This document shows positions 9,538-35,395 of a stretch of 42,551 bases of DNA, piece after piece. Below the pieces are notes generated by a model. The model saw only the letters and a program-made list of their open reading frames with translations. It was not told the origin of the DNA and did no database searches. Positions within the stretch are counted from its first letter, which is position 1; every line of letters begins with the position of its first letter. The position numbers and the translations under genes were made by a program. The stretch comes from an uncultured Ectothiorhodospiraceae bacterium (GTDB lineage Bacteria; Pseudomonadota; Gammaproteobacteria; XJ16; Halofilaceae): contig CAJXKK010000024.1 of assembly GCA_913055615.1 (NCBI GenBank), positions 1-42,551 on the forward strand, given 5' to 3'.

Positions 9538-12500
9538 GGCTGCGTTCCCTGCACATCGCCCGTCTGCCCGGCATCCGGCCCGGGTTCACGCTCGACGAAT
9601 TCGCGCCGGGCGTGAACGTCGTGGTCGGGCCCAATGCCTCGGGCAAGAGCAGCCTGGTGCGGGCCCTGCGCGCTGCGCTCTACCGCGACGAGTCGCGCCA
9701 TGAGGGTGTGCATGTAGAGGCGACGTTCGACGACGAGGATGCCAACGGCACGCTCGCGGCGCTGCGCGTCGGTGATGACCTGCACTGGCAGCGCGACGGC
9801 AGTCCCGGTGAGGCCCCCGCCTTGCCCGAGCGCCGGTTCCTGTCCTGCTACACGCTCGGCGTGGAAGACCTGCTGGACGACGCGCACGAGACCGACACGG
9901 AGATCGCCGAGCGCCTGGCCCGCGAACTGGCCGGCGGCTACGACCTGCGGGGCGTACGCGAGTCCGCGCCCTTCCGGCTCAAGTCAACCCATGGCCGCAA
10001 AGAGGCCAACGAACTGGCCGAGGCCGACCAGGAACTGCGCCGGCGCATGCAGGCGCAGCAGCAACTGCAGCGTGACGAGGCCCGGCTCGACACGCTGCGG
10101 GCGCAGAAGGCGGAGGCCGAGACGGCGGGCCGGGAGGCCGATCTCCATGAGCGCGCGCTCGACCTGCTCGACAAGCGCCGCCAGCACCGGGCGCTGGAGC
10201 AGCGGCTGCAGGAGTTCCCCGAGGGGATGGAGCGGCTGCGTGGCGATGAGCCGGATACACTCGCGGAACTGCGCGGGCGCCTGCAGCAGCAGGAGACGGA
10301 TCGCCGGGAGGCCGCGGATCGGCGCGCCTCGGCGGAGGCCGCGCTGCGTGAGTCCGGGCTTGCCGATGCCGAAGTCGATGAGGGCACGCTCGGCGATCAT
10401 CGCCCTGCACTGAATCGGCTTCAGAAAATCGAGACGCAGCTGGAGCAGAAGGGATCCGAATGGGCGCAGGCGCAAGCGACGCTCGCGCAGACGGTCCAGG
10501 CGCTGGGGGGCGAGCCCGGGCAGACGGTCCGGCTGGAGCCGGCGACGATCGGGAAAGTCGAGCAGGCGCTCGAGGAGAAGCGGCAGCTCGATGCGCCCCT
10601 GCGCGGCCTCGCGCACGAACTCGATCAGCTGCCGACCGGCGAAGCGCCCGCTCCAGACCCCGGGCAACTGCGTACGGCCCGCGGCGAACTGCTGCGCTGG
10701 CTCGCCGCGCCGCGCGCGCCGGTATGGACGGCGACGCGGATCCTGGCGGTGCTGGCGACACTCGGTGCGGCGATCGCCGGCATCACGCTCGCCGGTCTCG
10801 AAGTGCACCGCTGGCTGTTTGGCCTCTTCCTGCCGCTGGCCTTCGGCGGATACATCCTCATCCTGCGCCCCGCCGCCGGCGACACCCGGCGCCGCGAGGC
10901 CGAAGCGCGGTTCCGGGAGAGCGGCGAGGCGCCGCCGGAGGAATGGGATCCGGCACGGGTCGAGGAACGGCTCGCGGCGCTGGACCGCGCCGTGGTCGAG
11001 GCCGAGCAGGAGGATCGCGGTATCGAACGCCGCCGCGTGGTCGCCCGGGAACGGGACGCCAAACGTGAGGTGCTGGCAGCGGTCGATGAGCGGCTGCGCG
11101 GGATCGCCGCCAGGGTCGGGCACGACCCCGACGAGCTGAATGCATCCCTGCATCGGTGGCTGAAACTGGTGGCGGACCAGGATCAGGCGCGGCGTAACGT
11201 GAAGGCGCTGCGGGCCGAACACGAACGTCTTGCGGCGGAAGCGGAGCGGTTACGCCAGCAGTTGCTGACGTTCCTCACGCAACACGGTGAGGCCCCGGAC
11301 ATCGAACAACCGGGTGCCGACGCGCTCGCGGACCGGATCGATCGCCTCGCCGCTCGCCTGCGCCAACGCGAACAGACGCGGCAGGACATCGACCAGGCCG
11401 ATCGGGAGATGCGCCGGCTGGATCAGGAGATCGAAACGAGCCAAACGAAGATCCGGGGCGTGTTCGAGCGCGCGGGGCTGGCGCCGGATGAGGACGACGC
11501 GCTGCGTCAGCGCATGGAGCGGCTGGAAGAGTGGCAGGCGTTGACGAAGGAGCTGACCAACACCCGCCGACTGGAAATCGACCGACAGGAGCACCTCAGT
11601 GACCGTAACGATCTTCTGCAGCGGGTCGACGATGAAGATGAGAACGCGTTGTGCAGTCGGCGCGACACGCTTCGCGAACAGGCGGACAGCCTGGAAGAAC
11701 TGATCCAGGAGATCACGCGTATCACCGGCGATCTCGAACGCGCCGGCCATGAACGGGCGCTGGAAGCGGCCCGGGCCCAGCATCAGCAGGCGCGGGAGCG
11801 TCTGAATGACCGCCTGGACGAGGCGCTGTATGCCGAGGCGGGTCAGTTCCTGCTTGAGGGTGTCGAGGCGGAGCACGAGCAGGCGGTCCAGCCGGCGGCG
11901 CTGCGGCAGGCGCGGGAGTGGTTCAAGCGGTTCACGCATTATCAGTATGAGTTGGTGTTCGCGGCCGATGGCGAGACACGCTTCGCCGCGCGGGAGACCA
12001 CTTCCGGTGAGCACCGGCGGCTGTCGGAGCTCTCCAGTGGTACGCGTATGCAGTTGCTGCTCGCGGTGCGTATCGCGTTTGCGTTGAGTGCCGAGCGTGG
12101 GACTACGCGGCTACCGTTGATTCTGGATGAGGCGCTGACGACCGCCGATCCGGAGCGGTTCCGGGCGGTTGCCGAGAGCCTGACCGTGCTGGCGCGGGAG
12201 GATGGCCGGCAGGTGTTCTATCTGACCGCGCAGCCGGACGATGCGCGTTACTGGGCCGAGTATGCCCCCGATGCGCATTGCATCGATCTTGCCGAGCGGC
12301 GTGGGCGGGCGCGCGCGGTTGATGCGGCGGAGGCGCTGGCGCCGGCCGAGCGGGCGGTTGTGCCCTCGCCCGATGGACAGTCGGCGGAGGAATACGCGGT
12401 GACGATCGGAGTGCCGCCGATTGATCCGTGGAGTGAGGTCGAGGCGATCCATGTCTTTTATCTGCTGCGGGATGAGCTTGCGCTTGTGAAGCGGTTGCTT

Positions 12501-17166: not shown

Positions 17167-18354
17167 ATGAACCAGCTTGACAGAACGGCCCTGACGGCGA
17201 GCGTCTTCGCGATCGCTTTACTGTTCACCGGTGGCGCCATCGCCTCGGCCGTCGACGAACTCCCCGAGGAACTGCGGGACGAGCTCTACAATCCCGACAT
17301 GATGGACCCGAACCAGCCGCTGGAAGAAAGCGCGTACCGCGACTGGAAGGCGCCCAACCCTCCACCCTGGACGATCGGATTCGCGCAGTCTTACGCCGGT
17401 AACACCTGGCGTGCCAACGAAATGGAACGCCTGGAGAAGGTGCTGATCCCGAAGTGGAAGGAACTGGGCCTGATCGATGAAGTCATTATCACCCAGTCCA
17501 ACCTCGACGACTCGCGCCAGATCCAGCAGATCCGCCAGCTTGCCGACCAGGGCGTGGACGCGATCATGGTTTGCTGCTCCAATCCCACGGCGCTGAACCA
17601 GTCCGTCGAATACGCCTACGATCGCGGCATCCCGACCTTCTCCGCCACCGGGTACCTCACCTCGCCCTACTCCGTGAACTCCTCGGCGAACTTCGTCGTT
17701 GGCGGCCACATGCTCGGCGAGTGGATGGCGCAGGAGATCGGCGAGTCGGGCAAGGTCCTGAATGTCGAGGGTATCCCCGGCGCATCCGCCTCGGACTCCC
17801 AGGATCTCGGCATCAACATGGCGCTCGACGACTATCCGGATATCGAGATCGCCGGCACCGTCGCAGGCATGTGGACCGACCAGGTCGCGCAGAGCGAGAT
17901 CCAGCGGTGGCTCGCGACCCATCCCGGCCAACTCGACGGGATCATTATTCAGTCCGCGTCCGAACTCGGCGCGGTCCGTGCCCTGCAGCAGAGTGGGCGG
18001 GACATGATTCCGATCACGATCGGCGGTGAGGAAGGCGCGCTGTGCTACTGGCGCCAGAATCCCGACTACGTGTCCGCCGCCATCCATGCGTGGCCGCCCG
18101 GCACCGACTTCGAGATGAGCTGGAACATCATGATGCGCACGCTGCAGGGCCAGGGACCGAAGATCCAGTCGATCCTGACCCGACCGGTGAAGATGGACTT
18201 CGAGCAACTCGAGGCGGAACTCGACGAGGACTGCAGCGTCAATTCGAAGGGCTGGTACAACGTGCCGATCGAAGAATGGGCCGGCAAGGAGTATCTCGAC
18301 CAGTTCTTCCTGCGCCCGGCCGATCCGGAGCAATACGATCCGGATTCGCACTGA
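17167..18354 (+). CDS. Ribose-family (CUT2-like) ABC transporter substrate-binding protein
   Basis: A 395-residue periplasmic binding protein of the RbsB-like Peripla_BP_4 type. Signal peptide about 1-27 (SVFAIALLFTGGAIASA), no lipobox. About 40 acidic/proline-rich residues precede the fold. The core begins WTIGFAQSYAGNTWR and contains QIQQIRQLADQGVDAIMVC, GIPTFSATGY and QLDGIIIQSASELGAVRALQQ, as in sugar-binding members. It is the first gene of the ten-gene operon; GGAGG lies before the ATG. The ligand cannot be read from sequence: several aromatic residues (Trp, Tyr) fit a ring or hydrophobic ligand, but this is inference. A strong hairpin follows the gene. Confidence 0.93.
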   Translation: MNQLDRTALTASVFAIALLFTGGAIASAVDELPEELRDELYNPDMMDPNQPLEESAYRDWKAPNPPPWTIGFAQSYAGNTWRANEMERLEKVLIPKWKELGLIDEVIITQSNLDDSRQIQQIRQLADQGVDAIMVCCSNPTALNQSVEYAYDRGIPTFSATGYLTSPYSVNSSANFVVGGHMLGEWMAQEIGESGKVLNVEGIPGASASDSQDLGINMALDDYPDIEIAGTVAGMWTDQVAQSEIQRWLATHPGQLDGIIIQSASELGAVRALQQSGRDMIPITIGGEEGALCYWRQNPDYVSAAIHAWPPGTDFEMSWNIMMRTLQGQGPKIQSILTRPVKMDFEQLEAELDEDCSVNSKGWYNVPIEEWAGKEYLDQFFLRPADPEQYDPDSH

Positions 18355-18472: not shown

Positions 18473-20671
18473 ATGGCGAGTGCCAGCGTAGAACTGACTT
18501 CCGTGCGCAAGACCTTCGGGCCCACCGTGGCGCTCGCTGACTGCAGTCTTACCGCGTATCCGGGCGAGGTCCACGCGATCGTCGGCGGCAACGGTTCCGG
18601 CAAGAGCACCCTGGCGAAGGTGATGTCGGGCGTGCTGATCCCGGACTCCGGCCAGGTCTCGGTCATGGGCCGCTCGCCCACGACACCCGTGGAGGCCCGT
18701 CGCGCCGGCGTAGCCAACGTATTCCAGGAAGTGCTGGTCGCCGACGGCTGCTCGGTCCTCGACAATCTCTATCTCGGCTCCGACGGTCTGTTCACGGCGT
18801 CCATGCACCGTGAGGACAAGATCGAACAGGCAAGCCGTTTCCTGCGCGATCTGCTGGGTTTCGATCTCGATCTGTCGACCCGCGTCGGCGATCTCCCCCT
18901 CAGCCTCAAGCAGTGGATCACCATCGCCCGCGGCATGCTCTCGGATCCGAACGTGCTGATCCTGGATGAGAGTTCGGCCGCGCTCGATTTCGAGTCGACG
19001 GAGCGGCTGTTCGCCAAGATGCGCGAACTCAAGGCGCGGGGCACCGCGCTGTTGATCGTGACGCATCGGGTCGCGGAACTGGTGCGAATCGCCGACCGCG
19101 CCACCGTGTTACGCGATGGGCGCGACGTGGGGTGCCTGACCCGCGAAGAAATCACCGAACACAGTATTCTTGAACTGATCGCCGGGCCGCAGAGCCAGTA
19201 CACCGACGTCATCGCCCCGATTCCCGAGCCGCAGGCCGAGCGCCCTGTTCTGCGCATCGAGCATGCCCGGATCTGGCCCGATGCAGAGAAGATCAACTTC
19301 ACGCTCTACCCGGGCGAGATCGTCGGGGTAACCGGGCTGGACGGCCAGGGCCAAGCGGACTTCGTCAAGGCGGTCGCCGGTGTCACACCACTCGTGTCGG
19401 GGCGCATCAGCGTGATCGAGGGGCGCACCGCGCACGGGATCGAGGACCTGCGCTCCGCGCGCGCGAATCGCATCAGCTACATCAGCGGTGATCGCAAGAA
19501 GGAAGGGATCTTCCCGAACCTCAGTATTTACGAAAATCTCGCCATGCCGGTGTACCGCGAGTACCGCACGGGCGGGTTCGTCAACATCACCAACAGCGCG
19601 AAGCTCGTGCCCGTCTTCGAATGGGAGACCGACAAGCTTCGGGTCAAGATGGGCAGCCGGCACGACCTGATCACGTCCCTGTCCGGCGGCAACCAGCAGA
19701 AGGTGCTGATCGCCCGATCTTTCGCCGAGAACCCGGCCGTGCTCGTGCTCAATGACCCGGCACGCGGCATCGATGTCGGCGCCAAACACGACCTCTATCG
19801 CAACCTGCAGAACTTCGCCGCCGCGGGGCACGCGGCCGTGTTCCTGTCCTCGGAGATCGAGGAGTTCATGCATCTGTGCAGCCGGGTGCACGTCTTTCGC
19901 AACGGCGCCGTCAGCAGCGAGTTCCGCCCGCCGTACGACACGAACGTGATTCTGAACGCGACCTTCGGACGCCGACTCACCGCGCCCCTCGCGGACGCCG
20001 GGGCGAATGGCGACACGGTGGACTCGATCGCCGACGGACCCGCCCCGATCCGCTTCGACGAAGGGCGGCCGATGCCCCGGTCGGTGGGCCCGGTCGCGGG
20101 ACCCCGATACCGGACCAGCGCCAACGACGGAGGCGAGACGATGGCCACGCAAGGCTCCGATTTCGCGCTTTCCTGTCCGGACATCGTGCCGGGACAGGTG
20201 ATCCCCGACCGCTTCGTCGAGGACAACGTCAATTCGCCCCACCTCACCTGGTCAGGCGTCCCGGAGGGGACCCGCGGCTTCGCGCTCGCGGTGACGGATC
20301 CGGATCTGCCCGAGGAGTTCGGCTTCCCGCGCAGCTTCGCCCACTGGCTCATCCACGACATCCCCGCGAACGTCCGCGACCTGCCCGAGGGCGCAAGCCA
20401 GACCGGCGCCATGCCGAGCGGTGCGCGCGAACTGAATTCCGACTTCGTGACCTTCCAGGTGCCCGGCTTCGGGCGCGGTTACGGCGGCCCGTGGCCACCG
20501 GACCGCCAGCATCGCTATTTCTTCACGCTTTACGCGCTGACCCGCGAGCGCATGAACCTGAACCCTGATGCCGATCTGGCCGATTTTTACGCGGCGGTGT
20601 TGCCCGTCGCCATCGATTCCGCGTCCTTCGTCGCGGTGTACGGACCCGCCCGGAAGCCGCTTCCGGCGTAG
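18473..20671 (+). CDS. Double ABC ATPase (RbsA/MglA type) fused to a PEBP/YbhB domain
   Basis: A 732-residue protein. Residues 1-500 are two ABC domains. NBD1 has Walker A GGNGSGKST (38-46), a degenerate signature (LSLKQW) and Walker B LILDESSAALD. NBD2 has the Walker A replaced by GLDGQGQAD (usual in RbsA), signature LSGGNQQKV (from 403) and Walker B LNDPARGIDVG, where the usual DE pair is Asn427-Asp428. A linker of about 50 residues leads to a complete PEBP/YbhB domain (about 557-732) with TDPDLP and GPWPPDRQHRYFFTLYAL. No stop separates the two parts, but GGAGG stands before an in-frame ATG at 20141, so a separate 176-residue PEBP could also be made. ATG 18473 was chosen because it follows AAAGGAAAG and starts the ABC fold; the open frame upstream is not protein-like. 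Confidence 0.92.
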   Translation: MASASVELTSVRKTFGPTVALADCSLTAYPGEVHAIVGGNGSGKSTLAKVMSGVLIPDSGQVSVMGRSPTTPVEARRAGVANVFQEVLVADGCSVLDNLYLGSDGLFTASMHREDKIEQASRFLRDLLGFDLDLSTRVGDLPLSLKQWITIARGMLSDPNVLILDESSAALDFESTERLFAKMRELKARGTALLIVTHRVAELVRIADRATVLRDGRDVGCLTREEITEHSILELIAGPQSQYTDVIAPIPEPQAERPVLRIEHARIWPDAEKINFTLYPGEIVGVTGLDGQGQADFVKAVAGVTPLVSGRISVIEGRTAHGIEDLRSARANRISYISGDRKKEGIFPNLSIYENLAMPVYREYRTGGFVNITNSAKLVPVFEWETDKLRVKMGSRHDLITSLSGGNQQKVLIARSFAENPAVLVLNDPARGIDVGAKHDLYRNLQNFAAAGHAAVFLSSEIEEFMHLCSRVHVFRNGAVSSEFRPPYDTNVILNATFGRRLTAPLADAGANGDTVDSIADGPAPIRFDEGRPMPRSVGPVAGPRYRTSANDGGETMATQGSDFALSCPDIVPGQVIPDRFVEDNVNSPHLTWSGVPEGTRGFALAVTDPDLPEEFGFPRSFAHWLIHDIPANVRDLPEGASQTGAMPSGARELNSDFVTFQVPGFGRGYGGPWPPDRQHRYFFTLYALTRERMNLNPDADLADFYAAVLPVAIDSASFVAVYGPARKPLPA

Positions 20672-20719: not shown

Positions 20720-21124
20720 GTGAGCAACTACAGCAGTCGCAAGAAGCTCGACCTCGAGTGGATCGAGCGCTGGGCGCGGATCGTTAATGACGACCGCATC
20801 CTGCCGGTCACGGGGCGATTCTTCACCAGCAAGTTCGTCATCGGGATCGATGACACCGACTATCTGGTCGAGGTCCAGGAGGGCAAGATCCGGCGGATCT
20901 TCGAGGGCCTGACGCCGAACAACTTCGGTTACGAGTTCGGCCTCAAGGCCTCCTCGACCACCTGGTCGAAATTCACGCAGCAGGTACCGCCACCGATGTT
21001 CAACGACATCTGGGCCATGTGCCATCCGCTGCACCAGAACATGGTGATCGAGGGCAACACGCTGACGTTCTGGCAAAACGTGCGCGCACTGACCCGCATG
21101 CTCGCCCTGATGCGCGAAGTCTGA
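20720..21124 (+). CDS. Small soluble protein, possibly SCP2-like
   Basis: A 134-residue soluble protein. The start is GTG at 20720, after the purine-rich GAGAGGGGAAA. The pattern (helix, then VTGRFFTSKFVIGIDDTDYLVEVQ strands, then WSKFTQQVPPPMFNDIWAM and a C-terminal helix) suggests a sterol-carrier-protein-2-like lipid-binding fold, but I hold this only weakly. It lies 22 bases before the hydrolase gene and both sit between the ATPase and permease genes. It may carry or present a hydrophobic substrate to the hydrolase. Confidence 0.8.
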   Translation: MSNYSSRKKLDLEWIERWARIVNDDRILPVTGRFFTSKFVIGIDDTDYLVEVQEGKIRRIFEGLTPNNFGYEFGLKASSTTWSKFTQQVPPPMFNDIWAMCHPLHQNMVIEGNTLTFWQNVRALTRMLALMREV

Positions 21125-21146: not shown

Positions 21147-22091
21147 ATGAACACGCACGAACCCATTGTCGGTCGATATGTCTACGTCCAGTGCGAGGGC
21201 CGTACCTATCGCGTCTTCTACGAGGAAGCCGGAGAAGGCATTCCGATGGTCTGCACGCACACGGCTGGTGCGGACTGCCGACAGTACCGCCACCAGCTTT
21301 GCGATCCGGATTACACCAAGCACTTCCGGATGATCACCTTCGACATGCCGTGGCATGGCAAGTCCAACCCGCCGGCCGACTTCTATCTCATGGAAGACGA
21401 GTACAAGCTGACCGAGCGCTTCTATTCGGAGTTCGTCGTGGCCTTCTGCCGGGCGCTCGATCTCGAGAAGCCGGTATTCATGGGCCAGTCGATGGGCGGC
21501 AACCTCTGCCTCGAGCTGGCGCTTCGTTACGAGAACGAATTTTCCGCGTTCATCGCCCTCGAGGGCTGTGACCACTCCCCGGGCTGGTGGATCGATCCGC
21601 TGAACCACCCCGCCATCGGCTGCGACGGCGTCGCCACGGCCATCTTTGGCCTGATGTCCCCGGAATCGCCCGACGAGTACCGCCACGAGACCTGGTGGTA
21701 CTACGCCCAGGGCGGCCCCGGCATCTTCAAGGGCGATCTGCACTACTACAGCACGGACAGCGACTTCCGCGACCGCGTGCACAAGATCTCCGGGCGCGTG
21801 CCGATCTATTTCCTCACCGGCGAATACGACTTCGCCTGTACCCCGGAGATGACGGAACGCACCGCGGAGAAGGTCAAGGGCTCGGAGTGCATCATCTTCT
21901 CGGGCGGCCACTTCCCGACCTCGGAGGACCCGGACAAGTTCAAGGAAGTCGTGGCGCCGGTGCTCAAGAAGATCGTGCAGAACGACCCGGGACGGCGCGG
22001 CGGAGACGCGGGCCGCGGCAGCGCCTCGTCGACAGAGAGCCGGTCCACTTCCAGCCGGCCCGAGCGCCGGGTCATCGATCTGGACCGATAA
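21147..22091 (+). CDS. Alpha/beta hydrolase
   Basis: A 314-residue serine hydrolase. The nucleophile elbow is GQSMGG with Ser115; the likely triad partners are Asp228 (GEYDFA) and His255 (GGHFP). The oxyanion region is HTAGAD. A cap region around 140-215 is rich in Trp and Tyr. No signal peptide, so it acts in the cytoplasm. The last 40 residues are Arg/Ser-rich and probably disordered. Its place inside the ABC operon suggests it acts on the imported compound, perhaps as an esterase or C-C hydrolase; the substrate is unknown. GGAG at 21135-21138 precedes the ATG. Confidence 0.92.
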   Translation: MNTHEPIVGRYVYVQCEGRTYRVFYEEAGEGIPMVCTHTAGADCRQYRHQLCDPDYTKHFRMITFDMPWHGKSNPPADFYLMEDEYKLTERFYSEFVVAFCRALDLEKPVFMGQSMGGNLCLELALRYENEFSAFIALEGCDHSPGWWIDPLNHPAIGCDGVATAIFGLMSPESPDEYRHETWWYYAQGGPGIFKGDLHYYSTDSDFRDRVHKISGRVPIYFLTGEYDFACTPEMTERTAEKVKGSECIIFSGGHFPTSEDPDKFKEVVAPVLKKIVQNDPGRRGGDAGRGSASSTESRSTSSRPERRVIDLDR

Positions 22092-22152: not shown

Positions 22153-23559
22153 ATGGGCCAGAACAGCGGAGCCGAGAAGACCTACCTCCTCGTGCCGATC
22201 CTGCTGATCGCGGTGCTGACGTCGACCGCGGTGATCCGCAGTCCCAGCCTGGTCACCCTCCCGGGGCTGGGTTCGGCGATCATCGTCGCGGCGCCGATCA
22301 TTCTGGCGACATATGCCCTGATGGCGACGACCATCGCCGGCCGCGGGACCATCGATCTCGCGGTCGGTCCGCTGCTGGCGTTCATCAACGTGACGATCGT
22401 CCGACTCAACGGCCTGGACATCGTCACGGACCCGATCCCCGTGTTCCTGCTGGCGCTGGGTATCGGCGTCCTTTACCAGATCCTGTTCGCGCTGGTCATC
22501 ATCGTCGTTCGCGTACAGCCGATCATTGTCGCCCTCTCCGGCTATCTCGCCCTGTCGGGCATCAACCTGGTGATCCTCCGGCGTCCGGGCGGTACCGCGC
22601 CGACGTGGATGAGCGACTGGGGCGCGGGTGAGACCATTTTCTCGCCGGTGCTGCTGATCGTGCTGCTTGCAACTGGCGGCTGGCTGCTGTTCACGGCGAC
22701 CACGTTCTACTCGAACCTGCGCATGATGGGGTACGACGAGCGCGCCGCCTACACGAGTGGCGTGCGCATCTATCTCGCACGTCTCGGCGCCCATGTCATC
22801 TCGGGGCTGTTCGTCGGCCTTGCCGCGATCTGTTACACGGCGCTGATCTCCTCCGGAAACCCCAATGCCGGCGGGCAGATCACGCTGACGGCGGTGACCG
22901 CGCTGGTCCTTGGCGGGGTCGCGCTGTCCGGTGGGCGCGGTTCGGTCACCGGTGCCCTGCTGGGCGCGGTGACGCTGTTCCTGATCGGCTACGTGCTCTC
23001 GACCTTCCAGTTCGGCGCGATCCAGTCGTTCGTGACCGACCTGGCCTACGGCACGATCCTCGTGTCGTCACTGCTGCTGACCCTGCTCGTGCCGATCGTG
23101 GCACGCCATATCTCGTTCGTGTCGCCGTATGCGGCGTTCATCGTGCTCGCCACTGTGGTGGGCGGCATCATCCTCCATGTCGCCACCTACGACAGCTTCG
23201 TCGTCGCCCCCAGCGTCGCGCAGGCACTCGGGGACCCCGTTGCCAACAAGGCGCTTGCGGTACCCGATGACAACCTCGTGCAGCGCTACTTCGTGCTGCC
23301 CGAAGTGGCGAGTGGCGGCACCGGCGGGATCGGGCCGGTCGCGCTGAGTCTGACGCCACTGCAGCAGATTGCATTCGCCACGGCGGCCATTCTCGTCCTG
23401 GTCGTGTTCACGGCGCGCATGTTCGTGGTCGAGGCGGTCACGCCGCGCCTGAGTCTGTTTCTGTACATATTCATCGGCGCGCTGATCGTACTGACCTTTG
23501 TCACGCTGGCCCAGAGCGGCCCGGGTGCGGCAGCCGCCGCCGCGGGAGAAATACCATGA
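22153..23559 (+). CDS. ABC permease, RbsC-like (BPD_transp_2), with extra C-terminal helices
   Basis: A 468-residue inner-membrane permease. The RbsC-like core (about 1-320) contains GRGTIDLAVGPLLAFINV and the cytoplasmic coupling segment VLGGVALSGGRGSVTGALLGA. Usual family length is about 320-350. After the core come three more hydrophobic segments (about 322-348, 398-420, 428-450) with a soluble loop at about 355-395, ending in an alanine stretch. The next permease gene overlaps by four bases, so the two should form a heterodimer with the binding protein and double ATPase. Confidence 0.92.
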   Translation: MGQNSGAEKTYLLVPILLIAVLTSTAVIRSPSLVTLPGLGSAIIVAAPIILATYALMATTIAGRGTIDLAVGPLLAFINVTIVRLNGLDIVTDPIPVFLLALGIGVLYQILFALVIIVVRVQPIIVALSGYLALSGINLVILRRPGGTAPTWMSDWGAGETIFSPVLLIVLLATGGWLLFTATTFYSNLRMMGYDERAAYTSGVRIYLARLGAHVISGLFVGLAAICYTALISSGNPNAGGQITLTAVTALVLGGVALSGGRGSVTGALLGAVTLFLIGYVLSTFQFGAIQSFVTDLAYGTILVSSLLLTLLVPIVARHISFVSPYAAFIVLATVVGGIILHVATYDSFVVAPSVAQALGDPVANKALAVPDDNLVQRYFVLPEVASGGTGGIGPVALSLTPLQQIAFATAAILVLVVFTARMFVVEAVTPRLSLFLYIFIGALIVLTFVTLAQSGPGAAAAAAGEIP

Positions 23560-24965
23560 GTGTCGCCGAACGCGAGACCGCGCGTCGCTCGCCACTCGCC
23601 GCGCCGCGCTCGATGTTCCTCCTCTGGTTCAACATCGCGCTGACCTTCGTGGTCGCGGCGATCGGTTTCGGCATGGGCTTCGCCCAGGGCCTCGCCGCGC
23701 AGCTCGTAATCCTCTACACGATCGTTTCCGCCGCGGTGTTCCTGTGGTTCGCCAACGCCGTCACCGTGGTATTCGAGGACCGGCTCGCGGCACCCGAGAC
23801 GCACGCGGACGAGGAAAGCGCCGCGCGGCAACCGTCGTGGTGGCGCCGCAACTGGGTGATGCTGCTCGCCATGGCGGTCCTGCTGGTGCTCTACCTGGTC
23901 GTCACGGCCACGGTCGAGGCATTCCGCCAGCTGGAATATCTGATCACCTTCGTGATCCTCGAGCTGATCCTGCTGTTCGCCTTCAAGGTGTCGGTGCATT
24001 TCCCGCGGACCCGTAGCGCCTTCATAGGGCTGATGATCCTTGCCGCCCTGCTGGTGATCAGCGCGTTCACCATCGACGGCTTCCTCTCCGCGCCCAGCAT
24101 CCGTGCGCTGCTGCTGTTCGCCGCCTTCCTCGGCATCGCCTCGGTGGGCCAGACCATGGTGGCGCTGCTCGGTGGCCTCGACCTGTCCATCCCATTCGTC
24201 ATCGGCGCGGCCAACATCGGTCTGCTGTTCCTGATATCGCTGGGTGTGCCGCCATGGGTCGCGACCGGCTTCGTGCTGCTCCTGGGCGCCCTGCTCGGCC
24301 TGATCAACGGACTGCTGTCGTACCGCCTGCAGGCCCAGGCCCTGATCATTACGCTCGGCACCGGGTTCGCGCTGGCCGGCCTCGTGCAGATCCTGACGAG
24401 CATAGGCTCCGAGCAGGCCGGCAACGTCATGGGCACGGTGCCCGGCTGGCTGCGGAACCTCGCGGCAATGAACGGCACGACGTTCGGCCTCGCGGTGCCA
24501 CCGGCGATCATCATCTGGATCGTCCTGTCGGTGCTGATCATCCTGTTCATGCGCTATACCGCCTACGGCCGGTACATCTACGCGCTTGGTGGAAACCGCG
24601 AATCGGCCCGCCTGCTCGGCATCTCCGAACTCAAGTACTGGACCCTCGCCTACATCGTCAGCGGCTTTTTCTCGGCGGTTACGGGCTGCCTGCTGCTCGG
24701 GTGGTCGGGAGGCGGGTTCATCGACGTCGGCGAGAACTACCTGTTCATGACGCTCGCGGCGGTCGTAATCGGCGGCACTTCGCTCGCCGGCGGCCAGGGC
24801 GGCTATGGCTTCACGGTCATCGGCGTACTGGTCCTGCAGCTTCTGTCCACCTTCCTGATCGGGATCGGACTGAATTACGAGTGGCAGCAGTTCATTTTCG
24901 GTCTGCTCATTCTCCCGATGGTCGCGCTCTACAGCCGGGCGCCCCCGATCCGGTCACAAGTATAA
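23556..24965 (+). CDS. ABC permease, RbsC-like, with extra N-terminal helices
   Basis: A 469-residue permease. The core of the family starts at about residue 150 (SAFIGLMILAALLVISAF) and includes LLGGLDLSIPFVIGAANIG and the coupling loop VIGGTSLAGGQGGYGF. In front are about four additional helices (18-40, 45-68, 93-115, 125-148) separated by a charged loop. The partner permease has its additions at the C-terminus instead. The ATG overlaps the upstream stop by four bases. The opsin-like gene begins 11 bases after the stop. Confidence 0.92.
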   Translation: MSVAERETARRSPLAAPRSMFLLWFNIALTFVVAAIGFGMGFAQGLAAQLVILYTIVSAAVFLWFANAVTVVFEDRLAAPETHADEESAARQPSWWRRNWVMLLAMAVLLVLYLVVTATVEAFRQLEYLITFVILELILLFAFKVSVHFPRTRSAFIGLMILAALLVISAFTIDGFLSAPSIRALLLFAAFLGIASVGQTMVALLGGLDLSIPFVIGAANIGLLFLISLGVPPWVATGFVLLLGALLGLINGLLSYRLQAQALIITLGTGFALAGLVQILTSIGSEQAGNVMGTVPGWLRNLAAMNGTTFGLAVPPAIIIWIVLSVLIILFMRYTAYGRYIYALGGNRESARLLGISELKYWTLAYIVSGFFSAVTGCLLLGWSGGGFIDVGENYLFMTLAAVVIGGTSLAGGQGGYGFTVIGVLVLQLLSTFLIGIGLNYEWQQFIFGLLILPMVALYSRAPPIRSQV

Positions 24966-24976
24966 AGGGTCCGTTC

Positions 24977-25666
24977 ATGAACGATACGCTCTACCGGTCC
25001 GCCGACATCGTCACCACCTCGCTCACCACGGCGACCGTGGCGACACTCGCCGCCGGCCTCCTGTGCGCGCTCGGCCTATCCTGGACTTCGGACAAGTGGC
25101 GCCCGCCGCTCGCCCTCGCCTGCGTGGCACTGCTCGCCTCCGGCGTCGCCTATCTGCAGGCGCTCGGTATCTGGCAGGCCGTGGGCGAACTCAGCGCCGC
25201 GCCGCGTTACGTCGGCTGGTACACCGCCCAGCCCGCGCTCGTCGCCGCCGCCTTCTTCTACGCGCGCGTCGCCGGCCCCGTTCCCGTCGGCGTGTTCTGG
25301 CGCTCGGTCGTCGCTGCCCTGTTGATGGTCTTCAGCCGCTGGCTGGGCGATGCGCAGATCTTCGATCCCACCCTGGGCGCCCTGCTGTCGATCGCCTTCT
25401 GGCTCTACATTCTGGGCGAACTGTATTTCGGCGCCATGAGCAACGCGGTGCGCGGGCGTTCGCGGCCCATCCGTTCTGGTTATTTCTGGCTGCGGCTGAT
25501 CATGACGATCGGCTGGGCAATCTACCCGATTCTGCATTTCGTCGACGTGGTGATCGGTGTCGGACATGTGCCGAGCATCATCGTCCTGTACACCGTGGCG
25601 GACCTGGTGAACCTCATCACGCTCGCTCTGATTTATCTCTCCGTGGCCGGCAAGGAACGGTACTGA
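24977..25666 (+). CDS. Opsin-fold (proteorhodopsin-like) protein lacking the retinal lysine
   Basis: A 229-residue seven-helix protein homologous to proteorhodopsin along its length. Shared landmarks: KW (40-41) at the helix B start, GIW (64-66), RYVGW (77-81, helix C), LGDA (123-126), GELY (147-150), GWAIYP (179-184, helix F, identical to proteorhodopsin) and VADLVNL (207-213, helix G). The retinal Schiff-base lysine position is Leu213 (codon CTC at 25613-25615). The counterion Asp97 position is Gly80 and the donor Glu108 position is Ala91; the Asp227 equivalent is kept (Asp209). It cannot be a normal light-driven pump. It sits 11 bases after the permease gene and 55 before the flotillin gene, so it is probably co-expressed as a structural, sensory or ligand-binding subunit. 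No retinal or carotenoid genes are in the window. Confidence 0.9.
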   Translation: MNDTLYRSADIVTTSLTTATVATLAAGLLCALGLSWTSDKWRPPLALACVALLASGVAYLQALGIWQAVGELSAAPRYVGWYTAQPALVAAAFFYARVAGPVPVGVFWRSVVAALLMVFSRWLGDAQIFDPTLGALLSIAFWLYILGELYFGAMSNAVRGRSRPIRSGYFWLRLIMTIGWAIYPILHFVDVVIGVGHVPSIIVLYTVADLVNLITLALIYLSVAGKERY

Positions 25667-25721: not shown

Positions 25722-27923
25722 ATGACTGGTGCAGACGCAATCGCCATTCTCATTCTGCTCACGATCGTCATAGCGATCGGGGTATACCTGCTGCACTGGC
25801 TCTACCGCCACTCGTCGAAGAATCAGAGCTTCGTCCGCACGGGTGTGGGGGGTGAGCGAGTCGTGATGGGCGGCGGCGCTTTCGTGCTGCCGATCATCCA
25901 CGACGTGACCGTCGTGAACATGAATGCGGTGCCGATCGAGATCCGCCGCGCCGGCGAGCACTCTCTGCTGACCAAGAACAAGATGCGGATCGACGTCATC
26001 GCTGAATTCGACGTCCGGGTCGTGCCCACCGAGGAAGGCGTATCGACCGCCGCGCGCAGTCTGGGCGAACGCACGGCCAACCCGGCCGCGCTGCAGGAGG
26101 TGATACAGGGCCGTTTCGTCGACGCCATGTCGGCTATCGCCGCCCGCCACTCGATGGAGGCAATTCACACCAATCGCCTCGACTACATGAAGGAGGTGAC
26201 AGGCCTCGTCGAAGAGACGCTCACCCGACATGGACTGGAACTCGAGAACGCATCTCTGACCTCACTCAATCAATCCGATATCACGGTATTCGATCCGCGC
26301 AACGCCTTCGACGCAGAGGGCCTGACCCAGCTGACGGAACAGGTCGAAGCCGGACGCCGACGGCGCAATGAGATCGAGAATGAGACCCGCGTCGCCATCC
26401 GGGTCCGTGACTATGAGGCCGAGCAGCGTTCGCTGGAGATCGACCGCGACCTCGAATACGCGCGCCTCGAGCAGTCCCGGGATATCGAGCGGCAGCGCTC
26501 CAGGCAGCAGGCGGAGATCGAGGAAGAGCGCGCAAGTTCCGATATCAGCATCCATACCTCTAAAACACGCGCCGAGGAAGAAGCGGAGCGCATCCGCATC
26601 GACAAAGACCGCGCGGTCAACGAGGAACGAATCAACTCGGATAACCAGGTCCGTGCGCTGGAGATCCAGCGCCGTGAAGAGAACGAACTGCAGGCCATCA
26701 ATGCGGAACGGGCGATCGACGCCCAGCGCATCGTCAGTCAACAGTCGATCGAGGTGGAGCGCATCGACAATGAACGCAAGACGCGTGTGTCCGAGATCCA
26801 GTCGCGCCACGAGGTCGCGATCCGCGAGGCGAACGCTGACGCCGAGATCGACACCACACGCCAGGAACGGGAGCGGGAGATCGAGGAGAGCCGCATCGCC
26901 ACCCACAACGCCATCGAAATACTCTCGGTGGACAAGGCCCGGGAACTGAAGATCGCAAGCGAGCGGGCGACCGCGGAGGAGCACCTGGCGGCGATCGCGC
27001 GTCATTCGGTGGTGGACCAGGAGCGCCTCCAGCACGAAGAAGATGTCGCCCAGCGCAGGATCAACAAGGAACACACGATCAAGCTGGCCGAAACGAGTTC
27101 GATGCGCGAGACGGAAGACGCGAACATCGCGGCGCAGCGCGAGATCGAGGAAATGCGCGTCTCCGCACAGAAGTTCATCGAACGCTTCGAGATCGAACAG
27201 CAGAAGGAGGTCGAGATCGTCGACAAGGACCGCCTCATCGCGGTCGTCAACAAGTCGATCGAGGAAGCGGTGGCCCGCACGGACGAGGCCAAACACGAGA
27301 AGCTGTTCGCGCAGGCCGAAGAGGAAGTCTCGAGCGCCCGGGCACTCGAGATCGCCGATCGCAACAAGCGGGTCGAACAGGTCGAGGCGAGTTCGCGTGC
27401 CGAGCGCGAGGCATTGCGCGTCACGCGACACGCCGAAGCCGAACGCGCGGCCGCCGAGGAACGCGCCCAGGCGGAGATCGCCGAGGCGAACGCGGCCGAG
27501 GTGCGTTACGACAAGGACGCCGAGGGTGCGCGCAAGCTCAACGAGTCCGAGAACACGCGCAACGAGCAGAGTCGCCGCAGCGCGATCTACGAGCACCTGG
27601 TCAAGACCCTGCCCGAGATCATCGAGCAGACCGTCAAGCCGATGGAGAATATCGACTCCATAAAGATCATGCAGGTCGATGGGCTGCCGGGCATCAACAG
27701 CCCGTCGGAATCGACCGAAAACGGCGAAGATTCCGGTGGTCCGGGCGGCGGCAACATGACCGACCGCGTGGTCAACTCGGCCATGAAGTACCGGACCCAG
27801 GTGGCCTTCGTGGACGGGCTCATGAAGGATCTCGGTCTGCCCCTCGACAGCATCGGCAGTGCCGGCGGCATGTCGTTCCGCAACTTCGCGGAGTCCGACA
27901 AGGGCGACCAGGGCGACAACTGA
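25722..27923 (+). CDS. Flotillin/SPFH-family membrane scaffold protein (long form)
   Basis: A 733-residue protein. One N-terminal membrane helix (about 6-28), then an SPFH/band-7 domain (about 38-205: GVGGERVVMGGGAFVLPIIHDV, SLLTKNKMRIDVIAEFDVRV), then an extremely long Glu/Arg/Ala coiled coil (about 208-620) and a C-terminal oligomerisation-type region with LVKTLPEIIEQTVKPMENIDSIKIMQVDG and a Gly-rich linker. Typical flotillins (FloT, YqiK) are 480-560 residues, so the coil is enlarged. Flotillins organise membrane microdomains and recruit partner complexes. Lying between the opsin-like and four-helix membrane protein genes, it probably scaffolds the transport complex. Confidence 0.94.
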   Translation: MTGADAIAILILLTIVIAIGVYLLHWLYRHSSKNQSFVRTGVGGERVVMGGGAFVLPIIHDVTVVNMNAVPIEIRRAGEHSLLTKNKMRIDVIAEFDVRVVPTEEGVSTAARSLGERTANPAALQEVIQGRFVDAMSAIAARHSMEAIHTNRLDYMKEVTGLVEETLTRHGLELENASLTSLNQSDITVFDPRNAFDAEGLTQLTEQVEAGRRRRNEIENETRVAIRVRDYEAEQRSLEIDRDLEYARLEQSRDIERQRSRQQAEIEEERASSDISIHTSKTRAEEEAERIRIDKDRAVNEERINSDNQVRALEIQRREENELQAINAERAIDAQRIVSQQSIEVERIDNERKTRVSEIQSRHEVAIREANADAEIDTTRQEREREIEESRIATHNAIEILSVDKARELKIASERATAEEHLAAIARHSVVDQERLQHEEDVAQRRINKEHTIKLAETSSMRETEDANIAAQREIEEMRVSAQKFIERFEIEQQKEVEIVDKDRLIAVVNKSIEEAVARTDEAKHEKLFAQAEEEVSSARALEIADRNKRVEQVEASSRAEREALRVTRHAEAERAAAEERAQAEIAEANAAEVRYDKDAEGARKLNESENTRNEQSRRSAIYEHLVKTLPEIIEQTVKPMENIDSIKIMQVDGLPGINSPSESTENGEDSGGPGGGNMTDRVVNSAMKYRTQVAFVDGLMKDLGLPLDSIGSAGGMSFRNFAESDKGDQGDN

Positions 27924-28509: not shown

Positions 28510-30420
28510 ATGACCACCCTGCTCATCGGCGTGCTCGGATTCTTCTTCGTCTACGCGGTGTACATCGCCGCGCTGACGGCGCGCTGCGCGCACGCGCCCG
28601 AGGAGTACCTGGACGGCGGCTCGAGCCTGCCGCCGTGGTGTTTCATGTTCGCCGGCACGGGCATCGTCATCGCGGGGATCGGGCTCTACGATCATTTCCT
28701 GCTCCTCGCGCTGTACGGGCTGCAGTACAACCACGTCGCCATGGGTGTCGTGCTGGCCGCCCTCGCGGGCGTACTGGTACACAAGCGGCTGCTGCTGGCC
28801 GCGCGCATCAGCGGCCACCGCACGCTGGGCAATCTGCTCAGCGCCTACTACGGTTCGGTCACCCTGCGCGTGCTGACGCTCGTGCTGGTCCTGCTGTTCG
28901 CGGTGCCCTTCGCCGGCCAGAGCCTGTCGCGCCTCGGCGCGATCATCGCGAGCGCGACCGGCGACACGATCGAACGTGCCGAGGCCATCTGGGCGTGCGC
29001 GTTCTTCCTGTTTCTCGCCGGCGTGATCGGCGGTTGGCGCGGGACGATCTATGCGATCGGCGCCCAGGCCGTTGTGCTGGTCACGCTGATCGTGTTCGTC
29101 GGGGTCGGCGGGGCCGCCGGCCTCGGATGGACCGCACTCGTGTACGGCGATGTGCCCGCCCCGGAAGGCATCCTCAGCGAAGCGATCCCTGGCGTAATGC
29201 AGTATTCCGCCGGCATCGGCAAGGAAGAGACCATCGGCGGCCTGTGGACCACGACGGCGGTGTTTTCGCAGGCGCTCGCGTTCATCGGCATCGTGCTCAG
29301 CCCCGCGTTCACGCTGCTGGGCATGACGACGCGTCCACCGGCGCACTACGCGTTCAAGCAGGTTTGGCTGACCGCCGGGCTCGCCACGGGCGTGCTGTTG
29401 CTGGCCGCGCCCTTCATTGGCGCGGGCGTGGCGCTTGCCCATTCCGGCCCCCTGCGCGAGGCCACGGTAAGCTATACCGGCGTGCTTACGGCCCTGGTGG
29501 ACGTCGATGCCATGCTCGCCGTGGGCTTCGTGCTGATGCTCGCCGCCGCGCTGCAGATCGTCGTGGCCTTCTTCGCTCAGTCCGGGGCGAGCCTGTTCGT
29601 GATCGAACTGCTCGGCCGCGACCTCCTCCCCGATCTGTCTCCCGACGGCCGACGTCTGACGGCACGCGTCACGCTGGGCGTGATCTACCTCACGATCGCC
29701 CTGCTCGCCGCCTATGCGCCGCTGCTCGCCGAGATCGGTGGTGGCCTCGCGCTCTCGCTCTCGGTGCAATTACTGCCCGCGCTGATCGGTCTGTGCTGGG
29801 TCCGCTGGATCAGCCGCAGCGCCGTGCTCGCGGGGTTGATCTTCGGCATTCTGCTGGTCCTGTTCACCGAACCGCTGGGGCTGCTCGTATTCGAGAGCCT
29901 GTTCGTGGACCTGCCCTGGGGGCGCTGGCCGCTGACGATCCATTCCGCTGGCTGGGGGCTGGCCTTCAACATCGCCGCCTGCCTGCTCGCCAGCATCTTC
30001 ACCGCCCGCGATGCCGAGCGTGGCACGCGCGACCGCCTGCACGACGTCTTCCTGCGCGAGCACCGTCAGGACCTCGGTGGACCCGCGGCGCGCGGGGCGA
30101 AGTGGTCGCTGATCCTCGTCTGGGCCTTCTTCGCCCTCGGGCCGGGTGCCATCCTCGGCAACCGGTTCTTCTCCGACCCCATGTTCAGCGAACTCACGCC
30201 CGCGCTTCTGCTGCCGTCGCTATGGGTGTGGCAGATCCTGTTCTGGCTGCTGGGCGTGTTCATCGCATGGTGGCTGGCTTACAAAGCCGGGATGTCGGTA
30301 CTGAATCGCCCGATCGTCTTCCGCCTGCAGCTGGAACCGGAACGACCGTCATTCGAGCAGGGGGCGCCGCGCTGGCTGGAACAGTTCGTCAGGCGGGTGG
30401 CCCCGCGTCAGACATCATGA
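28510..30420 (+). CDS. Sodium:solute symporter family (SSS) protein
   Basis: A 636-residue membrane protein with about 13 helices. The start ATG at 28510 follows GAAGGAG. The N-terminal pattern (CAHAPEEYLDGGSSLPPW, then GNLLSAYYGSVTLRVLTLVLVLLFAVPFAGQSL) and LQIVVAFFAQSGASLFVIELLGRDLL fit the APC-type SSS fold. The usual length is 480-570 residues; the C-terminus here has extra helices (about 535-560 and 572-595). Last gene of the operon. It gives the cluster a second, ion-coupled uptake route beside the ABC importer, possibly for a product released by the hydrolase. Confidence 0.88.
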   Translation: MTTLLIGVLGFFFVYAVYIAALTARCAHAPEEYLDGGSSLPPWCFMFAGTGIVIAGIGLYDHFLLLALYGLQYNHVAMGVVLAALAGVLVHKRLLLAARISGHRTLGNLLSAYYGSVTLRVLTLVLVLLFAVPFAGQSLSRLGAIIASATGDTIERAEAIWACAFFLFLAGVIGGWRGTIYAIGAQAVVLVTLIVFVGVGGAAGLGWTALVYGDVPAPEGILSEAIPGVMQYSAGIGKEETIGGLWTTTAVFSQALAFIGIVLSPAFTLLGMTTRPPAHYAFKQVWLTAGLATGVLLLAAPFIGAGVALAHSGPLREATVSYTGVLTALVDVDAMLAVGFVLMLAAALQIVVAFFAQSGASLFVIELLGRDLLPDLSPDGRRLTARVTLGVIYLTIALLAAYAPLLAEIGGGLALSLSVQLLPALIGLCWVRWISRSAVLAGLIFGILLVLFTEPLGLLVFESLFVDLPWGRWPLTIHSAGWGLAFNIAACLLASIFTARDAERGTRDRLHDVFLREHRQDLGGPAARGAKWSLILVWAFFALGPGAILGNRFFSDPMFSELTPALLLPSLWVWQILFWLLGVFIAWWLAYKAGMSVLNRPIVFRLQLEPERPSFEQGAPRWLEQFVRRVAPRQTS

Positions 30421-31475: not shown

Positions 31476-31654
31476 GTGCTGTTTCCCTCCGGATTGAGCG
31501 ACAGTTCCGGGCCATCACTTTTCGCGATCACGGCTCCAGAAAAACTGTCTTGGTTGCGGGACAGAGTCTCCGCTTATGCTTTTACTTGTCAAATGGTATC
31601 CGCTGCGGCGATCGCCGCTTCATCGGTATCGGGTCCACGCAGGAGGTCCTTGCG
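31476..31654. promoter_or_regulatory. Divergent promoter region, LysR gene / catabolic operon
   Basis: This 179-base gap is noticeably more AT-rich than its surroundings. A candidate promoter for the plus-strand operon is TTGGTT (31550-31555), an 18-base spacer and TTATGC (31574-31579). LysR half-sites should lie upstream, but I could not pin a convincing T-N11-A palindrome. AGGAGGTCC at 31641-31649 is the ribosome binding site of the lyase gene. Confidence 0.4.
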
Positions 31655-32533
31655 ATGACGGGCGAAAATCTCCGGGATGCCCCACCCGAACTGCCGATCT
31701 TCGTGCCGGCCACGCGCCCGGATCGATTCGAGCGGGCGGCCCGATCGGGCGCCGATTGCATCATTATCGATCTGGAGGATGCCCTGCTCCCCGATGAGCG
31801 GCCACCGGCACGGGCTGCACTCGCGCGGATCCTGCCCAATCTGTGTCCGTCCGTACCCGTCCTGTTGCGCGTCAACGCGGCCACAACGGCCGATTTCCCG
31901 GCCGACCTCGACCTGCTGGACGCTGGCGGTACCGACGGCATCGTCCTGCCCAAGGCCGAGGCGCAGGTTGATCTGCGCGCGCTCCGCGAGCGCCTGCCGC
32001 GCAACGCCTCGATCCTCGCGCTGATCGAGACGCCACGGGGCCTGGCGGACGCGCGTACGCTCGCTGACCAGGCGGATCGCCTCGCCTTCGGCTCCATCGA
32101 TTATGCGCACACGGTGGGTATTGACCACACCGCCGATGCGCTTCTGAGCGCCCGCTCGGAGATCGTGCTGGCGGCCGCCCTCGCCGACGCTCCGAAGCCC
32201 TTCGACGGTGTGACACCGGGTATCGACAGCGACATGCCGGTCGAGCGCGACGCCGGGCGGGCCGCGGCACTGGGTTTCGGTGGCAAGCTGTTGATCCACC
32301 CCGCCCAGATCATCCCGGCCATCCGCGGATTCCAGCCTCAGCGTGAGGATGCCGACGAGGCGCGCGAACTCATCGTGCGTGCCGAGGGCGGCGTCAGCCG
32401 TTTCCGTGGCCGGATGATCGACCGCCCCGTACTCGATGCAGCCCGCCGGCGGGTAGCGGCGTTCGATCGCGCCGAGCAGCGCCTTGCCGCCATCCGTGCT
32501 GGCTCCGCGAGTGCCGGTACGGACCGGGTATAG
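31655..32533 (+). CDS. CitE-like lyase, probable citramalyl-CoA lyase
   Basis: A 292-residue HpcH/HpaI-CitE-family TIM-barrel lyase. Mg-binding and catalytic motifs seen: CIIIDLEDALLPDER, LRVNA, GIVLPKAE, ALIETPRGLADA and FGSIDYAHTVG, plus GFGGKLLIHPAQI. Such enzymes cleave malyl-, citryl- or citramalyl-CoA; stand-alone CitE proteins in itaconate loci split citramalyl-CoA to acetyl-CoA and pyruvate. The ATG at 31655 follows AGGAGGTCC; the frame upstream is not conserved-looking. First gene of the LysR-flanked operon. The CoA-transferase and hydratase downstream support the citramalyl-CoA assignment, though malyl-CoA activity cannot be excluded. Confidence 0.92.
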   Translation: MTGENLRDAPPELPIFVPATRPDRFERAARSGADCIIIDLEDALLPDERPPARAALARILPNLCPSVPVLLRVNAATTADFPADLDLLDAGGTDGIVLPKAEAQVDLRALRERLPRNASILALIETPRGLADARTLADQADRLAFGSIDYAHTVGIDHTADALLSARSEIVLAAALADAPKPFDGVTPGIDSDMPVERDAGRAAALGFGGKLLIHPAQIIPAIRGFQPQREDADEARELIVRAEGGVSRFRGRMIDRPVLDAARRRVAAFDRAEQRLAAIRAGSASAGTDRV

Positions 32534-32674
32534 GACACCGATATGCCCCCCAGCGCAAACAGGTCTTTGCAAGGGAAGGGTTTTTCCACGAACGTCGAAC
32601 GTGCTCCCAGCCCACGCGGAGAGCCCGAATGGCTGACCACAGCCCAAAGGACTGCTCATCGTCCCTCGCGGCAA

Positions 32675-32688
32675 GCCCGGGAACGGGC
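32675..32688 (+). promoter_or_regulatory. GGAA tetraloop hairpin before the CoA-transferase ribosome binding site
   Basis: GCCCG and CGGGC close a GGAA (GNRA-type) tetraloop immediately before the AAAGGAGGAT ribosome binding site at 32691-32700. The 173-base gap in which it sits is the longest in this operon, so a role in processing or translation control is possible. Confidence 0.35.
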
Positions 32689-32706
32689 ACAAAGGAGGAT
32701 CATCCA

Positions 32707-33840
32707 ATGAGCCTCGCCCATCCCCTTGAGGGCCTGTTGGTCGTTGCCGTCGAACAGGCAGTGGCCGCACCGTTCTGCACCGGCCGGCTGGCGGATGCCG
32801 GTGCGCGCGTGATCAAGATCGAGCGCCCCGAGGGTGACTTCGCGCGCGGCTACGATGAACTCGCGAGCGGACAGAGCAGCTACTTCGTGTGGCTCAATCG
32901 GGGCAAGGAGTCACTGGTACTGGATCTGCGCGACGACGCCGACCGCGTAACCATGCAGGAACTGCTGGGCCGCGCCGATATCTTCGTGCAGAACCTCAAG
33001 CCGGGCGCAATGGATCGCCTCGGGTTCGGACCGGCATACGTGCGCGCGGAGCGCCCCGAACTGATCACCTGTTCGATCAGCGGCTACGGCGACCAGGGGC
33101 CGCTGGCGCAGCGCAAGGCCTACGACCTGCTGATCCAGGCCGAGGCCGGCCTCTGTTCGATCACCGGCGGCCCGGAATCTCCCTCGCGCGTCGGTATCTC
33201 GCTGGTCGACATCGCGACCGGTGCGACCGCGCACGCGGCCATTCTCGAGGCGCTGGTCGCGCGCTCGCGGACTGGCACGGGCGCGGAGATCAGCATCTCG
33301 ATGTTTGACGTTATGGCCGACTGGCTCGCCGTCCCCCTGCTGCAGGAGCTTGGCGGGCGGACGCCGCAGCGAGTGGGCCTGGCCCACCCGAGCATCGCAC
33401 CCTATGGCGCCTTCAAAGCCGGCGACGGCTCGATGTTCCTGATCTCGATCCAGAGCGAGCGTGAGTGGGCTCTGCTCTGCCGCGACTTCCTGAAACGACC
33501 GGAGTTGATCGAAGACCCGCGCTTCCATTCGAACGTCGCCCGGGTCGAACATCGGGCCGCGACCGACGCACTGCTCGCCGAGGCCTTCACGCGCCATGAT
33601 CACGACAGCGCCCAGGCCGCGCTGGCGCTCGCGGACATCGCTTTCGCCACGGTCAATGACATGGCCGGTCTGGCACGCCATCCGCACCTGCGTATGGTCG
33701 AGATCGACACCCCCGGTGGCCCGATCCGCATTCCCGCGCCGGCGCCGCTGGTGCGCGGTGCGCAGCGCATGCCCGGGCCGGTGCCAGGGCTCGGTGCCCA
33801 CGCGCCACTCGATTTCCCGGATGGCGACCAGCCGCAATGA
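32707..33840 (+). CDS. CaiB/BaiF-type CoA-transferase, probable itaconate CoA-transferase
   Basis: A 377-residue class III CoA-transferase. The family start is LEGLLVVAVEQAVAAPFCTGRLADAGARVIKIERPEGDFAR. The catalytic Asp is in VDIATGATAHAAIL. LVLDLRDDADR and VFVQNLKPGAMDRLGFG-type features (here IFVQNLKPGAMDRLGFG) are present. It moves CoA between carboxylates without a free-CoA step. The ATG at 32707 is set by AAAGGAGG. Its place beside the CitE-like lyase and MaoC-type hydratase suggests itaconate, mesaconate or citramalate as acceptor, with succinyl-CoA or acetyl-CoA as the likely donor (inference). Confidence 0.93.
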   Translation: MSLAHPLEGLLVVAVEQAVAAPFCTGRLADAGARVIKIERPEGDFARGYDELASGQSSYFVWLNRGKESLVLDLRDDADRVTMQELLGRADIFVQNLKPGAMDRLGFGPAYVRAERPELITCSISGYGDQGPLAQRKAYDLLIQAEAGLCSITGGPESPSRVGISLVDIATGATAHAAILEALVARSRTGTGAEISISMFDVMADWLAVPLLQELGGRTPQRVGLAHPSIAPYGAFKAGDGSMFLISIQSEREWALLCRDFLKRPELIEDPRFHSNVARVEHRAATDALLAEAFTRHDHDSAQAALALADIAFATVNDMAGLARHPHLRMVEIDTPGGPIRIPAPAPLVRGAQRMPGPVPGLGAHAPLDFPDGDQPQ

Positions 33841-33871
33841 GTCCGCCGGCCGCAGACGCGGAGTGAACGAC

Positions 33872-35347: not shown

Positions 35348-35395
35348 TGCCACACGCTCCCATCCACTCCAGCCCCGCGACGACAGTGAGAACCC

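Follow-up and report, generated by a model that had tools for sequence, protein, structure and literature searches.

A conserved fusion of a PEBP/YbhB domain to the double ATPase of a putative RbsA-type importer

The window, a 42,551-nucleotide contig from an uncultured Ectothiorhodospiraceae bacterium, carries on its + strand a set of genes coding for a predicted ABC importer and several accompanying proteins. It opens with a periplasmic substrate-binding protein of 395 residues (17167..18354; Peripla_BP_4, PF13407, E 8.9e-37), an orthologue of which is found upstream of the ABC gene in nearly all of the loci described below as FAR-type. This gene is followed by that of a double ABC ATPase extended by a PEBP/YbhB domain (18473..20671), by a small gene coding for a protein of 134 residues (20720..21124), and by the gene of a 314-residue alpha/beta hydrolase (21147..22091; PF00561, E 2.1e-17) with weak similarity to the enol-lactonase PcaD. 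Two permeases, both recognised by Pfam as BPD_transp_2 proteins, are encoded next (permease 1, 22153..23559; permease 2, 23556..24965), and then a rhodopsin-like protein (24977..25666; PF01036, E 3.9e-13), a flotillin (25722..27923; PF15975, E 2.1e-31, together with Band_7), and a conserved multi-pass membrane protein of 636 residues without Pfam match (28510..30420), whose gene comes after that of flotillin in most loci. This setting, with its rhodopsin-like protein, flotillin and SCP2-like carrier, was absent from the original prediction and is what bears most on function. Further downstream, a catabolic set (31550-38887) comprises an HpcH/HpaI aldolase, a CoA-transferase III, an aldehyde dehydrogenase, a MaoC-like dehydratase, an acyl-CoA dehydrogenase and an MmgE/PrpD protein; parts of it recur beside related operons and may hint at the substrate.

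The ABC double ATPase and the PEBP domain had been predicted to share one unbroken frame, and this was found to be the case, with the Pfam domains as claimed. The gene is a single ORF of 732 residues, running from ATG 18473 to the stop codon at 20669-20671. An alternative in-frame GTG at 18365 would yield 768 residues, but the alignment of homologues begins at M18473 instead. The encoded protein consists of an RbsA-type double ABC ATPase, a predicted disordered linker of about 55 residues and a complete PEBP/YbhB domain. Pfam detects ABC_tran (PF00005) twice, with an E value of 8e-40, and RbsA-like models match residues 5-500. Compared with the equivalogs of characterised sugar transporters, the protein scores about 308 bits at best and does not reach their cut-offs, which range from 586 to 850 (699 for the best model). 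The first ABC domain, NBD1 (residues 22-167, 18536..18973), harbours a canonical Walker A, GGNGSGKST, and a Walker B, both in invariant columns of the alignment of fused proteins, as is the signature LSGGNQQK of NBD2. At the place where a Walker A with its lysine would stand, NBD2 of the fusions shows GLDGQGQ. RbsA-type ATPases are known to possess one composite ATP site, and the intact NBD1 motifs and NBD2 signature, combined with the missing Walker A lysine, point to such a single site in the fusions.

The linker (residues 508-561, 19994..20155), predicted as disordered from AlphaFold2 pLDDT values below 50, contains a conserved motif, FDEGRPMPR (20054..20080), which is kept as [DEGQ][GS]RPxxR in most fusions. 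With regard to the PEBP/YbhB domain (20204..20641), PF01161 matches residues 578-723 over model positions 3-135 of 135 (E 2.6e-30, 106 bits against a cut-off of 24), and the two motifs first reported for it, TDPDLP and GPWPPDRQHRYFF, are both present. Its nearest solved structures are those of E. coli YbhB (1vi3/1fjj). The pocket motifs TDPDLP/DPDLP, HW and GPWPPD..HRY do not vary among the aligned fusions, which makes it very probable that the PEBP binds a ligand of some kind. An AlphaFold2 model of the fusion, built with 21 sequences, gives good domain cores at a pTM of 0.45 and does not place the PEBP relative to the ATPase.

The search for related loci consisted in scanning 84,980 species genomes with an alignment of permease 1; 80 loci were retained together with as much as 10 kb of sequence to either side, and searched by tblastn with every protein of the operon. 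The ABC gene was readable in 77 homologous operons, 20 with and 57 without a PEBP, so that 21 fusions are available when the window is added. In each of the 20, the PEBP follows the ABC ATPase and precedes the small 134-aa gene, in the frame of the ABC gene and with no intervening stop. The original prediction had called for a search for the same architecture in other genomes, and had named relatives with two separate genes as the finding that would speak against it; no separate PEBP gene was detected in any of the homologous loci. The fused relatives include Mesorhizobium, Ruegeria, Paracoccus and Rhizobacter, and isolates with the fusion include Mesorhizobium sophorae, M. comanense, M. denitrificans, Ruegeria sediminis, Paracoccus haematequi and Taklimakanibacter lacteus. 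The ABC-PEBP fusion is real and represents an evolutionarily maintained architecture. A survey of 398 genomes of the phylum established no such fusion outside FAR-type operons, not counting long frames in G274, G643 and G687 (L157), the last of which did not yield the PEBP frame on translation; most stand-alone PEBPs in these genomes lie in frames of about 150-300 residues. Nor was a report of a PEBP-ABC fusion found among open-licence papers.

When the C-terminal part is left out, an ABC tree groups the PEBP rows together, with L089, which has no PEBP, inside the clade and two Rhizobacter MAGs apart from it. Two independent fusions had been considered, as these Rhizobacter rows (L091, L094) fell among non-PEBP rows in a quick ABC tree. 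The idea was dropped: a single clade is compatible with the AU test (p-AU 0.69), the constrained tree being better by 5.9 log units, and one fusion followed by one loss is thus sufficient. At L089:6463-8524, the ATPase belongs to the PEBP clade and carries neither PEBP nor the tail peptide described below, in an otherwise intact operon; the PEBP is therefore dispensable in L089. A single group with strong support unites the hydrolases of the PEBP loci, and its only other members come from L089, L127, L130 and two loci without an ABC match. Concerning the origin of the operon in the window, neither permease 1 nor the small gene is found in two other members of the genus (G001 and G002), and the operons closest to it, at 65-77% identity, are alphaproteobacterial; it was therefore probably acquired horizontally.

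The ATPases lacking a PEBP end in long, probably disordered C-terminal tails, and 52 of the 57 carry the peptide [KR]I[VI]EFD (also [IV][KR][IV]VEF[DG]), usually no more than about 20 residues from the C-terminus; this figure comprises 51 found by pattern count and L123, in whose partial row the peptide was seen. None of the 21 PEBP operons has it. Furthermore, the metallo-beta-lactamase-fold hydrolase of the tail-peptide operons opens with MKI[IV]EFDDKGQRVE followed by a linker of 40-60 residues, and the peptide stands at the hydrolase start in 40 of 47 loci when a relaxed pattern is used. In some gammaproteobacterial relatives, HyuB and a small ORF terminate in this peptide as well. A six-frame count gives 111 occurrences of the pattern in the non-PEBP loci, none in the 21 PEBP loci and 2 in shuffled sequences; as the pattern was chosen after the tails had been seen, this count shows confinement and is not a blind test. 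In the loci from L090 to L151, the form [MIV][KR]I[VI]EFD is located at ABC C-termini and at N-termini of the metallo-beta-lactamase-fold hydrolases (for example in L101, near 9885-9905 and 5800-5912), joined to the ATPase and hydrolase domains by disordered-looking linkers. PEBP and tail peptide exclude each other along clade lines, which could be the outcome of one historical event. This shared terminal peptide is a more surprising element than the fusion. A second short motif, approximately Y[ST]xxDxxxFxKL, was noticed in gammaproteobacterial relatives (L041:12528-13139; L148:5511-5846; the ABC C-terminus of L152 near 9934), with up to four copies in a 203-residue ORF without Pfam match. 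The motif also occurs in an ATPase tail, and in a small ORF that has an IKIIDFD peptide too.

In the PEBP loci, the SCP2-like and hydrolase genes lie directly between ABC-PEBP and permease 1. The 134-aa protein is predicted to have an SCP2 fold: its AlphaFold2 model (pLDDT 89.7) superposes with VIA-align on sterol carrier protein 2 (2cx7) with a Z score of 14.1 and an rmsd of 2.6 over 118 residues at 12% identity, and Foldseek returns the SCP2 fold with an E value of 1.8e-05. A sequence search of the same protein against solved structures gave no useful match, although the fold comparison succeeded. The protein has no significant Pfam match, and its family stays under the Pfam SCP2 gathering score: of 47 homologues, 27 give a sub-threshold match, the best with an E value of 0.0016. 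Homologues adjoining an alpha/beta hydrolase, with no ABC match nearby, were observed in L033 and L034. In the gammaproteobacterial relatives L036, L041 and L072/L148, HyuA and HyuB (hydantoinase/oxoprolinase) are encoded between the ATPase and permease 1, and occupy the place of the SCP2-like and hydrolase genes of the window clade.

The rhodopsin-like gene is directly followed by that of flotillin, on one strand, in the window and in most related loci. Alignment of the window protein with the genome's own proteorhodopsin reveals Leu at the position of the retinal lysine and Gly at that of the Asp97 counterion. In the related loci, the former position holds Leu, Arg or Gln almost throughout (Leu for the window clade, chiefly Arg for the sister clades), and the latter is Gly or Ala. 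Since both the retinal lysine and Asp97 are missing, the protein is probably blind. A second, true proteorhodopsin with its lysine is encoded elsewhere in the genome (G000:C13:55247-55927, 144 bits). The DTT/DTL/DNI motif of marine FARs is not present in the window protein, which has Gly, Ala and Ala at the key positions; helix G is devoid of lysine, as in freshwater FARs, where Gln, Thr, Leu or Arg takes its place. The protein, and with it the importer operon, is described here as FAR-type, short of a proven FAR.

We can tentatively propose that the fusion would be the energy-coupling subunit of an RbsA/CUT2-type importer encoded in a FAR-type operon, the ATPase C-terminus serving as an attachment point and the PEBP as a tethered module handling or sensing the imported ligand. 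The peptide at this end in most clades, and the covalently attached PEBP in the window clade, suggest such a role for the C-terminus: the window clade would carry the PEBP there on a flexible linker, and the sister clades the [KR]I[VI]EFD peptide. Positioned where the permease opens to the cytoplasm, the PEBP would bind the imported ligand, and would pass it to, or act on it with, the SCP2-fold carrier and the alpha/beta hydrolase encoded next. An internal start in the gene, described below, may in addition provide some free PEBP in about half of the lineages. The tethering, the hand-over and the class of ligand belong to a reading that we consider plausible without placing firm confidence in it, and the same reserve applies to the binding, by the conserved PEBP pocket, of the incoming compound or its product. 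As to the nature of this compound, a guess from family names would be a lactone- or lactam-like substrate, since ring-opening enzymes recur in these operons (HyuA/HyuB, the lactonase-like metallo-beta-lactamase-fold protein, the enol-lactonase-like hydrolase). A broader version, which is possible but rather doubtful, would regard the ATPase C-terminus in FAR-type operons as an exchangeable assembly point, where the peptide gathers transporter and enzymes, perhaps on flotillin or the blind rhodopsin, and where the window clade uses the PEBP fusion instead. If true, an import-plus-catabolism assembly at a flotillin microdomain would have been built in two alternative ways.

The main rival to the ligand-handling module is a regulatory sensor, in which an internal ligand or a phospholipid head group bound by the PEBP would inhibit the ATPase. 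In other importers, the C-terminal domains of MetN or ModC inhibit the ATPase on ligand binding. The C-terminal position of the PEBP on an ATPase with one ATP site, its intact pocket, and the abundance of lipid-linked proteins in the operon (flotillin, SCP2 fold) would fit such a function. Nevertheless, the linker is long and disordered, with no packing predicted by AlphaFold2, the PEBP has no sequence likeness to known regulatory domains of importers, and its linkage to the carrier and hydrolase genes suggests ligand handling; we hold the sensor to be possible but somewhat unlikely.

An unlikely explanation is that free PEBP is the main functional form, and that the fusion results from read-through after loss of the ABC stop codon. 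The original prediction had drawn attention to an in-frame ATG at 20141, preceded by GGAGG, as the start of a free PEBP of 176 residues (20141..20671). This Shine-Dalgarno sequence (20129..20133) is indeed present, 7 nucleotides upstream, with a pairing energy to the anti-Shine-Dalgarno sequence of -9.5 kcal/mol. An ATG with a Shine-Dalgarno sequence stands at the head of the PEBP in 11 of the 21 fusions, namely the window and 10 relatives, with energies of -5.8 to -12.7 kcal/mol, far stronger than at the other in-frame ATGs of these genes (184 codons, median -2.5, of which 2.7% reach -7.5 or better; Mann-Whitney p 5e-6, a value that ignores relatedness). In the other 10 fusions, by contrast, the internal ATG is absent or lacks a Shine-Dalgarno sequence, the Rhodobacter and Paracoccus relatives having ILNQSGF or DLNQSRF in place of the MNQSGF of the others, and yet the PEBP is fused and its motifs are invariant; the lack of a separate PEBP gene in any of the loci also speaks against the free form as the principal one. 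Thus, of the claim that one gene gives both a fusion and a free PEBP, the fusion stands, whereas dual expression is not a general property. Free PEBP might be produced in the window, as a lineage-specific trait at best, and the internal start may be the relic of a formerly separate gene.

Distinctly unlikely, in our opinion, is a PEBP acting as a small-molecule enzyme on the imported compound, by analogy with what has been proposed for the YbhB family (PMC8793217). That review makes a case for catalysis and mentions fusions of YbhB with carbohydrate-oxidising modules, and the downstream genes of the window are catabolic (HpcH/HpaI, CoA-transferase, aldehyde dehydrogenase, acyl-CoA dehydrogenase, MmgE/PrpD). 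However, no PEBP/YbhB reaction was found in the portions of the literature consulted. Finally, an assembly or sequencing artefact, such as a stop or frameshift hidden before 20141, has a negligible probability and is excluded in practice by the same in-frame fusion in 20 independent genomes, several of them from cultured isolates.

Compared with known systems, the window ATPase shares with the CUT2 ATPases RbsA, XylG and AraG two ABC domains, one composite ATP site, and an accompanying binding protein and BPD_transp_2 permeases, but differs from them by its additional C-terminal PEBP and by scores below every cut-off for characterised transporters. Its PEBP has in common with E. coli YbhB and the PEBP family (1vi3, 1fjj, 1fux) the complete PF01161 domain and the binding motifs, except that it is covalently part of a transporter ATPase. 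According to PMC8793217, YbhB homologues are mostly stand-alone and rarely found in conserved operons, and YbhB domains fused to glucose/sorbosone dehydrogenase are known. In the latter, as in the window, the PEBP is the C-terminal module of a longer protein, but the partner is an oxidoreductase unrelated to the ABC ATPase. A conserved fusion with an importer ATPase provides strong genomic-context evidence for a role of bacterial PEBP/YbhB proteins, at least of this branch, in the uptake or use of a transported compound.

FAR clusters have been described from uncultured plankton and freshwater metagenomes. Those of Haro-Moreno et al. (2023, PMC10308929) share with the window a rhodopsin-like gene followed by flotillin, a sterol-carrier-type protein, an inner-membrane translocator and alpha/beta hydrolases, and with its genome a true proteorhodopsin encoded elsewhere. 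The window protein differs from these FARs by having neither DTT/DTL/DNI nor lysine, and the published cluster annotation, in the text consulted, makes no mention of a PEBP or of this ATPase fusion. Further, operons of the window type also occur in cultured Rhizobiales and Rhodobacterales. Genera in culture that contain related operons are Mesorhizobium, Ruegeria, Paracoccus, Hoeflea, Rhizobium and Ensifer. These operons connect one particular importer, which has a predicted SCP2-fold carrier, with a putatively blind rhodopsin and flotillin, and the PEBP domain, together with the peptide tag that is its alternative, offers a concrete handle on the function of FAR clusters.
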